From NCBI RefSeq assembly GCF_033441515.1, contig NZ_JAWQJT010000001.1:1-64000 (forward strand): a DNA stretch of 64,000 nt, in the 5' to 3' direction. The notes below the pieces were generated by a model. It worked only from the letters and a program-made list of their open reading frames with translations, ran no database searches and had not been told where the DNA came from. A program made the position numbers and the translations under genes. This document shows, piece after piece, positions 36,961-40,205 of this stretch. This DNA comes from Amycolatopsis solani. GTDB taxonomy: Bacteria; Actinomycetota; Actinomycetes; Mycobacteriales; Pseudonocardiaceae. Every line of letters starts with the position of its first letter. The first letter of the stretch is position 1.

Positions 36961-37734
36961 TCATTCCGCCCGCAGCGCCGCCGTCAGCGCGGCGTGCGCC
37001 TCCACCAGCGAAGGTCCGTACCACGTCAGGTGCCGCCCCGAGATCAGCACGTACCGCGCGCCCGGGAAGTGGTCCGGCCCGTCGTCCTCGGTGAACAGGT
37101 ACGGCTCGTCCGGCAGCACCAGCAGGTCCGCGTCCGCGCTCAAGTGCGCCCGCAGCTCCGCCACGTCCGGCCGTGGGTAGCGCTCGTCCGACCCCGCGTA
37201 GACGTTCGCCACGCCGACGCGGCGCAGGACGTCGCCGCCGAAGGTGTCGCGGCCCAGGACTATCCACGGTTTGCGCCAGACCGGGACCACCGCGTGGAAG
37301 CGCACCGGCCGGGTCTCGCGCCAGAGTTCCTCCGCCGACACCAGCCAGTCCGGTTCGTCCAGCTCGCACGCCTGCGTGAGGATCCGCCGCAGCGACGCCA
37401 GCGCGGCGGGCACGGACGCCGACGCGGCCATCACCCAGACCGGGATCCCGTTGGCGCGCAGGCGTTCCACGTCCTCCGGGCGGTTCTCCTCCGAGTTGGC
37501 CAGCACGAGGTCCGGCGCGAGGTCCAGCACCCGGTCGAGCTTCGGGTACTTGGACCCACCCACCCGCGGGACGTCCAAAGTGGACGGATGCGTGCAGTAG
37601 TCCGTGACGCCGGCCAGGCGCCCCGGCGCGCTCACCTCGACCGCTTCGGTCAGCGACGGCACGAGCGACACGATGCGCGAAGCCGGGCCGGACAGCGGCA
37701 CCGGCTCCCCGAGGTCGTCGACGAGAGAGGTCAT
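36961..37734 (-). CDS. BtuF-like helical-backbone metal receptor protein without signal peptide
   Basis: 257 residues of the periplasmic-binding fold used for cobalamin and siderophores (SRIVSLVPSLTEAVEVSAPGRLAGVTDYCTHP, DLAPDLVLANSEENRPEDVERLRANGIPVWV, DLLVLPDEPYLFTEDD). It lacks any signal peptide or lipobox, so it should stay in the cytoplasm; actinobacteria commonly carry such versions. ATG 37734 overlaps the RNB ribonuclease stop (ATGA). Ligand unknown; a corrinoid or metal complex is possible. No ABC partner is nearby. Confidence 0.75.
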   Translation of the reverse strand: MTSLVDDLGEPVPLSGPASRIVSLVPSLTEAVEVSAPGRLAGVTDYCTHPSTLDVPRVGGSKYPKLDRVLDLAPDLVLANSEENRPEDVERLRANGIPVWVMAASASVPAALASLRRILTQACELDEPDWLVSAEELWRETRPVRFHAVVPVWRKPWIVLGRDTFGGDVLRRVGVANVYAGSDERYPRPDVAELRAHLSADADLLVLPDEPYLFTEDDGPDHFPGARYVLISGRHLTWYGPSLVEAHAALTAALRAE

Positions 37735-39143
37735 GCGCGTTCGAACGACACCTTCCGCTGCTCGACGTCCACCGCGGTCAGCCGGACGGCGATCCGCTCC
37801 CCCGCGGTCAGCTTCTCCCCCGCGCACTTCGCCATCACCGTCGGGTCTTCGACGAGGATCTCCGCCTTGTTCTCGTCCGCGCGCAGCACCACCGCGCTGA
37901 ACTCGCCGCCGACGTGCTCGGCCAGCACCCACGCTTCGACCTGGTCGATGCACGCCCGCTCGACCTTCGCGGCGAGGGTGTCCGACGCGCTCATCCGCTC
38001 GGGCACGTCCGCCAGCGCCGCGCGCACCCACGCCAGCACCTCGCGGCCCGCCGAGACGGCGAGGCAGATCTCCGTGGCGAAGCGGTCCACCAGCCGCCGG
38101 ATCGGCGCCGTCACGTGCGCGTACGCGCCGCCGATGCCCGCGTGCGTCGTCAACGCCGGCAGTTCGCCGTCGAACGCCGTGTAGCCCGCGCCGCGCAGCA
38201 GCCGCGTCGTGTCGGCGTAGAGCGCCATCGAGGCAGGTTGCCCGGGGTCCAGCGCGGACAGGAACTCCGACACGGTCGTCTCCGGTGCCCAGGCGATGCC
38301 CAGCGCGTCGGCCGAGCGGCGCAGCCAGTCGACGGCCTCGGGTTCCGGGTCGGGCAGCGTGCGCAGGACGCCGACCCGCGCGTCGATCATGATCCGCGCC
38401 GCCGCCATCCCGGTGAGCAGCGAGATCTCGGCGTTCCAGGCGTCGACGACCGTCCGCGGCCGGCGGGCGAGCACCCAGCCGCCGTCCGGGTTGCCGCTGA
38501 TCTCCTGCTCCGGCAGCTGCAGCTCGACCGCGCCGCGGCGGACGGCCAGTTCGCGCCGCCGCCGCCCGAGCTCGGGCAGCGCCGCCACCGACGGGTGCGG
38601 CTTCCCGGCGTCGAGCGCGGCTTGCACCGTCTCGTAGTCGAACTGCTCGGTGGACCGGACCAGCGCGCGGCGCACGCGCGTGGACGTCGGCTCGCCGGCT
38701 TCGTCGGTCTCGATGGTCCAGAGCACCGCGGGCCGGACCTCGCCCGGCAGCAGGCTCGCGGCGCCTTCGGACAGCACCGGCGGGTGCAGCGGGACGTTCC
38801 CGTCGGGCAGGTAGAGCGTCTGCCCGCGCAGGCGTGATTCGCGGTCGAGCGCGCCGCCGGGCGGGACGAACGCGGCGAGGTCGGCGATCGCGTAGTGCAC
38901 GCGGAAGCCGCGCGCGGTCTTCTCCACGACCATCGCCTGGTCGAGGTCCTTGGACCCGGGCGGGTCGATGGTGACGAACGGCAGCTCGGTCGCGTCTTCG
39001 CGAGGCTCGGCGAGCGGGTCGAGGACCGCCGCCTCCGCTTCGGCCAGCACGTCCGGCCCGAACGACTCCGGCAGCGAAAACTCGGCGCGCAGGGGCCCGA
39101 AGTCCCCGCCCGCCGAGTGTGTCCTGATCACCAGGGGAGGCAC
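37731..39143 (-). CDS. RNB-domain exoribonuclease (RNase II/R-like)
   Basis: 470 residues. The catalytic acidic cluster is visible in TIDPPGSKDLDQAM, with YAIADLAAFVPPGGALDRESRLRGQTLYLPDGNVPLHP and the later AYAHVTAPIRRLVDRF, the RNB fingerprint. N-terminal cold-shock and C-terminal S1 domains are shorter than in E. coli RNase II, as usual in actinobacterial forms. It should degrade RNA 3' to 5'. GTG 39143 is the start. The Zur-like box lies 78-98 bases upstream. Confidence 0.85.
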   Translation of the reverse strand: MPPLVIRTHSAGGDFGPLRAEFSLPESFGPDVLAEAEAAVLDPLAEPREDATELPFVTIDPPGSKDLDQAMVVEKTARGFRVHYAIADLAAFVPPGGALDRESRLRGQTLYLPDGNVPLHPPVLSEGAASLLPGEVRPAVLWTIETDEAGEPTSTRVRRALVRSTEQFDYETVQAALDAGKPHPSVAALPELGRRRRELAVRRGAVELQLPEQEISGNPDGGWVLARRPRTVVDAWNAEISLLTGMAAARIMIDARVGVLRTLPDPEPEAVDWLRRSADALGIAWAPETTVSEFLSALDPGQPASMALYADTTRLLRGAGYTAFDGELPALTTHAGIGGAYAHVTAPIRRLVDRFATEICLAVSAGREVLAWVRAALADVPERMSASDTLAAKVERACIDQVEAWVLAEHVGGEFSAVVLRADENKAEILVEDPTVMAKCAGEKLTAGERIAVRLTAVDVEQRKVSFERA

Positions 39144-39210
39144 CCCCCAACCCTAACCCCGGAAGGGGCCGATGATCGCCCGATCGGGCGCGGGCCGGTC
39201 GGGTGTACGT

Positions 39211-39259
39211 TGTCGGGCAATAATGAAAACCGTCTTCGTTATCAGAAGGGTGCCCGACA
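39211..39259. promoter_or_regulatory. perfect 9-bp inverted repeat flanking the Zur-like box
   Basis: TGTCGGGCA (39211-39219) and TGCCCGACA (39251-39259) are exact reverse complements. They enclose the Zur-like box, and the right arm ends one base before the GTG of the ATPase gene. As RNA the stem would put the GAAGGG ribosome site in the loop and the start codon beside the stem; as DNA it could loop or add an operator. Confidence 0.5.
39221..39241. promoter_or_regulatory. Zur-like operator
   Basis: TAATGAAAAC-C-GTCTTCGTTA (39221-39241) is a 21-base near-palindrome with 8 of 10 positions symmetric. It closely resembles the actinobacterial Zur consensus built on TGAAAATNNTTTTCA with flanking TAA/TTA. 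It is AT-rich in a very GC-rich region and lies 20 bases before the CooC-like ATPase start. This is a match by eye, not a scored hit. Confidence 0.55.
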
Positions 39260-39260
39260 A

Positions 39261-40205
39261 GTGAAGATCGCGTTCGTCGGCAAGGGCGGCAGCGGCAAGA
39301 CCACGCTCTCGTCGCTGTTCGTCGCGTACCTCGCCGACGCCGGCCTGCCGGTGCTGGCGATCGACGCCGACATCAACCAGCACCTGGCGGTGGCGCTCGG
39401 CGCGACCGAAGAAGAAGCACTGGCCTGGCCGACGCTCGGCGACAACATGGCCCTGATCAAGGAGTACCTGCGCGGCGACAACCCGCGCATCCCCGACGCG
39501 GCGTCGATGATCAAGACGACCCCGCCAGGGCGGGGCTCCCGCCTGGTCCGGCCGTTCGAGGACAACCCGGTGTTCTCGGCGTGCTTCCGCCAATTGGGCG
39601 GCGTGCGGCTCGGCGTCACCGGCCAGTTCGACGAGGACGACCTGGGCGTCAAGTGCTACCACTCGAAGGTGGGAGCCGCGGAGCTGCTGCTGAACCACCT
39701 GGTCGACGTGGACGGCGAGTACGTCGTGATGGACATGACGGCGGGCGCGGACGCGTTCGCTTCGGGCCTGTTCACGCGGTTCGACGTGACGTTCCTGGTG
39801 TGCGAGCCGACGGTGCGCAGCGTGGGCGTGTACCGCCAGTACGCGGACTACGCCCGCGACTTCGGCGTCCGGCTCGTGGTGGTGGGCAACAAGGTGACGG
39901 ACGCGGAGGACGTCGAGTTCCTGCAGGACCAGGTCGGCGGCGCGCTGCTGGGCTGGTTGTCGGCGTCCCGCCACGTCCGCGCGGCCGAGCGCGGCACAGC
40001 CCGCCCGATCAGCGAGCTGGAGCCCCGCAACCTCTCGACGCTGCGTTCGATGCACGCGGCGGTGGACGCGGAACACCGCGACTGGGCGCGCTACCAGCGC
40101 CAGGCGGTGGAGTTCCACCTGCGCAACGCCCACGCCTGGGCCGGCGCGGACCTGGCCGCGCAGGTGGATCCGGAGTTCGTCCTGGGACCGCAGCTGGTGG
40201 TCTAG
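39261..40205 (+). CDS. CooC/MinD-type P-loop ATPase, possible metallochaperone
   Basis: 314 residues. The deviant Walker A KGGSGKTT (residues 8-15) follows MKIAFVG, and AIDADINQHLAVALG is the switch I region of the SIMIBI class. VMDMTAGADAFASGLFTRFD holds the Walker B area. Family members include ParA, NifH and CooC. At residues 132-134 it has CYH, where CooC proteins carry the metal-binding CxC motif at their dimer interface. With the Zur-like box upstream this suggests zinc or nickel handling, but no client enzyme is adjacent. GTG 39261 is the only start in phase with the Walker A strand. Confidence 0.75.
   Translation: MKIAFVGKGGSGKTTLSSLFVAYLADAGLPVLAIDADINQHLAVALGATEEEALAWPTLGDNMALIKEYLRGDNPRIPDAASMIKTTPPGRGSRLVRPFEDNPVFSACFRQLGGVRLGVTGQFDEDDLGVKCYHSKVGAAELLLNHLVDVDGEYVVMDMTAGADAFASGLFTRFDVTFLVCEPTVRSVGVYRQYADYARDFGVRLVVVGNKVTDAEDVEFLQDQVGGALLGWLSASRHVRAAERGTARPISELEPRNLSTLRSMHAAVDAEHRDWARYQRQAVEFHLRNAHAWAGADLAAQVDPEFVLGPQLVV

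Follow-up and report, generated by a model that had tools for sequence, protein, structure and literature searches.

A CooC-like ATPase behind a candidate Zur operator in Amycolatopsis solani, with a possible role in zinc allocation

To our knowledge, NTPases that allocate zinc are known only from the G3E/COG0523 branch, to which ZNG1 belongs, and nickel is the metal handled by CooC, a metallochaperone of the P-loop ATPase type. The accessible part of PMC9164220 likewise describes zinc-allocating NTPases from this one P-loop branch, and the COG0523 G3E GTPases YciC, ZagA and ZigA, which belong to Zur regulons, are thought to allocate zinc (accessible parts of PMC2770081, PMC2823685 and PMC9164220). 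In CooC1, Cys112 and Cys114 bind zinc at the dimer interface, and nickel and zinc share one site (accessible part of PMC6006190). Here we analyze a CooC-like ATPase gene in the first 64,000 nucleotides of contig NZ_JAWQJT010000001.1 of the soil bacterium Amycolatopsis solani (assembly GCF_033441515.1), a stretch hereafter called the window. A preliminary description made from the sequence alone had conjectured a zinc metallochaperone, and the Zur-type box in front of the gene, its zinc setting in relatives and the position of its putative metal site support this conjecture. Because the box and the neighboring genes in relatives point to zinc shortage, the ATPase may represent an unrecognized type of zinc-delivery protein. 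We put at about 0.7 the probability that it is a Zur-repressed zinc-allocation ATPase built on a CooC scaffold, analogous to the COG0523 GTPases.

Candidate Zur operator of the ATPase gene

The gene occupies positions 39261 to 40205 of the plus strand and encodes a 314-residue protein from a GTG start (PF01656/PF13614). Upstream of it, on the same strand, lies the 21-bp sequence TAATGAAAACCGTCTTCGTTA (39221 to 39241), i.e., TAATGAAAAC-C-GTCTTCGTTA, in which 8 of the 10 arm positions are palindromic and which ends 19 bases before the start codon. The likeness to the actinobacterial Zur palindrome noted in the preliminary description was borne out by both consensus and matrix. The box is the sole site in the window with at most three mismatches to the published consensus taaTGaNAANNNTTNtCANta, as quoted in the accessible part of PMC5472717; it has two, and the shuffle control gave 0 matches in 100 shuffles. 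On a matrix built from the six Corynebacterium glutamicum Zur sites printed in the accessible part of PMC2823685, of which the adhA site is only predicted, it scored 28.7 bits, against 10.5 bits for the second-best site of the window, and the order-0 chance of such a score is 1.6e-10 per position. The genome encodes a Zur protein, a Fur-family member at locus L054 (1.2e-52 to Mycobacterium tuberculosis FurB and 4.6e-52 to ScZur), and two further Fur-family proteins.

The znuA gene, the only PF01297 gene of the genome, has a box that scored 24.7 bits on the same matrix and has 14 of 21 bases in common with that of the ATPase. By eye, a −10-like hexamer directly precedes both boxes; at the ATPase it belongs to an extended −10-like element, TG-TACGTT (39204 to 39211, plus strand), just before the box. 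The string TGTANNNT occurs at most 75 bp upstream of the ATPase in all 30 Amycolatopsis loci, which were drawn from the 34 genomes of the genus with an ATPase match, including this one. Since a scan with a generic sigma-70 consensus found no promoter at the ATPase or znuA boxes, we can only infer that the element is a promoter. The 15-bp pattern TGANAANNNTTNTCA was not enriched genome-wide: it occurs at 14 sites, and its reversed form at 12. When the ATPase and znuA boxes were combined into a pattern, it matched exactly those two with zero mismatches, and at up to two mismatches it gave 7 matches genome-wide versus 5 for its reversed control; derived as it is from these two boxes, it provides no independent test.

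All 30 Amycolatopsis loci have a box that scores 24 bits or more. Beyond the genus, unless another sample is named, counts refer to an 80-locus set consisting of the best 80 of 586 confirmed relatives, which leans to close relatives and comprises 61 non-Streptomyces and 19 Streptomyces loci. A box of at least 16 bits was present within 250 bp upstream of the ATPase in 58 of the 61 non-Streptomyces loci versus 1 of the 19 Streptomyces loci. For the 874 other genes of these loci, which were taken from a simple open reading frame (ORF) caller, not from annotation, the count was 19. The loci carry 23 genus labels, among them a metagenome-assembled genome named only to family, and for 21 of these labels most loci had such a box. 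At 20 bits or more, the corresponding counts were 52/61, 1/19 and 14/874, and at 24 bits or more 39/61, 0/19 and 13/874. Counting mismatches to the consensus gave four or fewer in 40 of the 58 loci outside Streptomycetaceae, 3 of 22 Streptomycetaceae (with Streptacidiphilus placed among them), 15 of 874 control genes and 5 of 1160 shuffles, which preserve single-base composition only. At least 9 of the 19 boxed control genes, assigned by position match with the neighbor annotation, are themselves linked to zinc: cobW (L185, L191, L208, L209), znuA (L196, L208, L214) and SCO5389 genes (L208, L209).

Locus counts are not phylogenetically independent, and we guarded against this by testing the box label on a tree of 148 proteins. 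The label required 5 changes, versus a mean of 36 after shuffling, and 36 of the 41 box-less proteins formed one Streptomyces clade. From the sequence data, we strongly infer Zur control of the ATPase gene. On the same tree, the ATPase of a record named Rhodococcus rhodnii NRRL B-16535 (L178) lies very near that of Kibdelosporangium; this record may be mislabeled or contaminated.

C-x-H motif at the CooC metal position

As the preliminary description had stated, the protein carries a deviant Walker A motif, which the ORF translation gives as GKGGSGKTT at residues 7 to 15 (codons at 39279 to 39305, plus strand). All nine residues are invariant in an 18-row alignment, and two loci of the 80-locus set (L193 and L210) have GKGGAGKTT. 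CooC1 (3kje) is the best solved relative by sequence and also ranks first in Foldseek with the AlphaFold2 model (predicted local distance difference test [pLDDT] 89, predicted TM-score 0.90).

The three Cys residues of the ATPase are at positions 108, 132 and 181, and the second begins the C132-Y133-H134 motif (39654 to 39662, plus strand). Profile alignment placed its G-V-A-C-Y-H segment on G-S-Q-C-Y-C of CooC1 (residues 109 to 114), so that the motif coincides with Cys112-Tyr-Cys114, the metal position to which it had been assigned at the outset. The preliminary description had made its idea depend on the conservation of this motif, and C-[YF]-H was found in 155 of 155 loci (149 CYH, 6 CFH); these loci overlap, with 148 different proteins and some genomes apparently present twice. 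A buried non-metal role for these residues, another refuting condition named at the outset, is addressed indirectly, by their coincidence with the interface metal ligands of CooC1. The alignment suggests that in an ATPase dimer the C132/H134 pairs may form a Cys2His2 zinc site at the interface.

The absence of a CO dehydrogenase gene noted for the window extends to the whole 10.28-Mb genome, in which the model of the nickel-CO-dehydrogenase catalytic subunit, TIGR01702, found no match; hydrogenases were not searched for. The same model matches in 5 of 14 control genomes. A Pfam search at E ≤ 0.01 gave no match of the ATPase to the cobW domain PF02492, and the protein lacks the CxCC motif of the COG0523/G3E GTPases. 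Its best NCBIfam score in the curated MinD/ParA families, 27.3, falls short of the 201.75 bits set for minD_arch. The initial view of a zinc- or nickel-stress ATPase, not a ParA protein, is supported, with zinc now favored over nickel.

Zinc genes, the SCO5389 family and other neighbors

The ATPase gene adjoins znuABC, zur or COG0523 genes in some genomes of the Frankia, Micromonospora and Dactylosporangium types. The order is ATPase, SCO5389-family gene, znuA, znuC, znuB in the Frankia-type locus L136 and also in L247, and SCO5389-family gene, ATPase, znuA, znuC in L135, from the same genome as L247; one of the two Frankia-type genomes shares an identical protein with Frankia sp. AgB1.9. In Dactylosporangium siamense (L206), the ATPase gene is followed by SCO5389, a luciferase-like gene, zur, znuA, znuC and two permease genes, and in L214 by SCO5389 and znuA. 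Micromonospora veneta (L196) has the order SCO5389, luciferase-like gene, ATPase, zur (in the opposite orientation), ArsP-type permease, znuA, znuC, znuB, and in L208 the ATPase gene occurs together with zur and znuA-znuC-znuB. Some neighbors in L206, L214 and L196 were identified by BLAST only. Overall, an SCO5389-family gene lies within 8 kb of the ATPase gene in 21 of the 80 loci, directly downstream in 16 of them, and within the same distance znuA is found in 4, znuB in 5, a Zur-like Fur gene in 5 and cobW in 4.

Two copies of the ATPase gene are present in six genomes. In each of the four Streptomyces-type genomes (G076, G247, G264, G281), an SCO5389 gene comes after the one copy that has the box, and the second copy is box-less; in the two f32 genomes (G198, G403), both copies have the box. 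As a side finding, contigs C27 of G010 and C16 of G057 have clusters in which several partial matches to CooC-like ATPases adjoin one another.

In A. solani itself, the SCO5389-family gene (PF20704) is not linked to the ATPase gene (contig C1, 1158663 to 1159052, i.e., 2001 to 2390 of L252). It has a weaker Zur-like box, TGATGATCATCGTTTTCTCTT, 59 to 79 bp upstream, that scored 19.0 bits (chance 5e-5 per 250 bp; about two such scores are expected genome-wide), and it is possibly a second member of the regulon. The Amycolatopsis SCO5389 genes of our protein set are likewise unlinked copies with candidate boxes. Our SCO5389 protein set comprised 29 linked loci minus L205 and L194 and 12 unlinked Amycolatopsis loci minus L154. 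In an 18-row alignment of the family, a Q-N-C-H motif and a C-terminal Cys are invariant. The AlphaFold2 model is confident (pLDDT 92), and it had no Foldseek match in the PDB at E ≤ 0.001; a PDB sequence search was also empty. A PF00296 luciferase-like monooxygenase gene directly follows the SCO5389-family gene at L206:9382-10404, L196:6835-7791 and L133:9070-10104.

The A. solani genome also encodes cobW-domain proteins. A pair of COG0523 (cobW) genes is located at C2:756321-758483 (L045, L049), with a weak Zur-like site near one start.

On the minus strand of the window, divergent from the ATPase gene, are a gene for an RNase II/R-type exoribonuclease (37731 to 39143; PF00773, PF18614), whose start is separated from the candidate operator by 77 bases, and a gene for a PF01497 receptor-fold protein with no obvious signal peptide by eye (36961 to 37734). 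This layout agrees with the preliminary description, which had counted the divergent operon as evidence for a metal system. However, the operon is no evidence for the system, because just 18 of the 80 loci have the RNase gene near the ATPase gene, and these are all from Amycolatopsis or Prauserella. On the basis of the RNase gene alone, we dropped the operon as a functional partner and judged both genes to lie outside the system. Between the divergent genes, a perfect palindrome, CGCCCGATCGGGCG (39177 to 39190), is kept as CGCCCG(A/T)TCGGGCG in 21 of the 30 Amycolatopsis loci; the other nine have a similar sequence.

Proposed mechanism, alternatives and known systems

When zinc is sufficient, Zur most probably binds at 39221 to 39241, immediately behind the −10-like element, and prevents transcription of the gene, as sequence, conservation and linkage strongly suggest. 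Under zinc starvation, the ATPase gene would be derepressed together with znuA, perhaps along with the unlinked SCO5389-family gene and its weaker box. The ATPase would then dimerize and, judging from the residue alignment, the two C-x-H motifs would create a Cys2His2-like Zn(II) site at the interface position of CooC1. ATP binding and hydrolysis would alter the dimer so that zinc passes to a priority client, as has been suggested for CooC with nickel and for the COG0523 GTPases with zinc. The likeliest client or partner would be, speculatively, the SCO5389-family protein.

Several observations weigh against a Zur-repressed zinc-allocation ATPase. The C-x-C of CooC is replaced by C-x-H in the family, and the confidence of the model is lowest in precisely this loop (pLDDT below 50 at residues 130 to 132). 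Two of 35 congeneric genomes (G004, G020) lack the gene, and 14 of the 30 Amycolatopsis loci have a box with a degraded or shortened right half (13 of an orientalis-like subclade, and L010; 24.1 to 24.7 bits). The 16-bit cut was chosen after the scores were known. The box is missing from 18 of 19 Streptomyces loci; therefore, any zinc role there would be constitutive or absent. Among class-level loci, 12 of 29 reached 16 bits and 17 did not, 15 of the latter belonging to the box-less Streptomyces clade and the remaining 2 scoring 14 to 15 bits. Two Actinomycetospora loci have no box despite an SCO5389 gene next downstream, and two boxed copies, the Streptomyces-type L248 and the f31 copy L250, have no SCO5389 match. 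Finally, direct linkage to znuA was seen at just 4 of 80 loci, none of them in Amycolatopsis.

The ATPase could be under Zur without carrying metal; it would then act on the SCO5389-family protein as a MinD/ParA-like switch, driving it or setting its position, with C132 and H134 in a structural or catalytic role. We consider this unlikely, given that the invariant C-x-H falls on the metal ligands of CooC1, which is both the top sequence match and the first Foldseek hit. Zinc is also favored over nickel as the metal: Cys/His ligation suits Zn(II), the genome has no TIGR01702 CO dehydrogenase, and relatives show Zur boxes and linkage to znu, zur and cobW genes. A protein that handles nickel or cobalt, with Zur merely adding more of it when zinc is short, is for these reasons quite improbable, even though CooC1 accommodates nickel and zinc at one site (accessible part of PMC6006190) and JGI and some NCBI records call relatives CO dehydrogenase maturation factors. 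We give very little credence to the idea that the box serves another Fur-family protein or an unrelated palindrome-binding regulator and that the gene is unconnected to zinc. The two further Fur-family proteins, the degraded right half in one subclade and the lack of enrichment of TGANAANNNTTNTCA would fit it, but the match to the C. glutamicum Zur matrix, the likeness to the znuA box of the same genome, the zur and znuABC genes linked to the ATPase gene in relatives and the zinc-linked share of the boxed control genes argue otherwise.

If the ATPase does allocate zinc under Zur control, the CooC type would provide a second, separate solution to zinc allocation in many actinomycete genera, the label “CO dehydrogenase maturation factor” would gain a testable meaning where CO dehydrogenase is absent, and the uncharacterized SCO5389 family (PF20704) would acquire its first functional setting. 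More tentatively, and with considerable doubt, one may imagine a second ATP-driven zinc-allocation pathway in actinomycetes outside COG0523/ZNG1, in which a dimer built on the CooC scaffold, with a Cys2His2 site at its interface, would pass zinc to the SCO5389-family protein. Zur-controlled versions of both would exist, and some Streptomyces would have constitutive and zinc-starvation copies of the ATPase, like the C+/C− pairs of ribosomal proteins. Our literature search found no Zur-regulated CooC-like ATPase; it did not cover the Streptomyces coelicolor Zur chromatin immunoprecipitation list (supplement of PMC5472717), where prior detection is not excluded. No such ATPase is named in section 7 of PMC2823685, nor is one mentioned in the accessible parts of PMC6103462 and its regulon table, PMC2770081, PMC5472717, PMC7174638, PMC4531530, PMC4726154, PMC6006190 and PMC9164220.

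Among known systems, CooC1, the nickel ATPase for carbon monoxide dehydrogenase (PDB 3kje/3kji), is the closest: it shares the deviant Walker A motif and the fold (Foldseek TMt 0.74), and its C112-Y-C114 occupies the position of C132-Y-H134. Relative to CooC1, the ATPase is 60 residues longer, 21 to 23% identical and has C-x-H instead of C-x-C. Unlike the CooC1 system, it has a Zur box and zinc-gene linkage in relatives, in a genome with no TIGR01702 match. Because the C-x-C motif, in the 155 loci, and a nickel-CO-dehydrogenase (CooS) client, in the 10.28-Mb genome, were both looked for and not found, we do not class it as CooC. HypB, the nickel chaperone for hydrogenase, has in its ATPase type (5auq) a similar fold and is absent from the sequence matches. 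MinD/ParA and NifH/BchL have the fold and the deviant Walker A motif in common with the ATPase, with sequence matches mostly limited to the N-terminal P-loop region, but not the C-x-H at the CooC metal position. As in Zur regulons, a 21-bp candidate operator is located, by sequence, at the putative promoter, and a Zur protein is encoded in the genome. In this setting, and in its proposed role as a zinc-allocating NTPase, the ATPase resembles the COG0523 GTPases; they differ in P-loop subclass and metal motif, the ATPase being of the MinD type.
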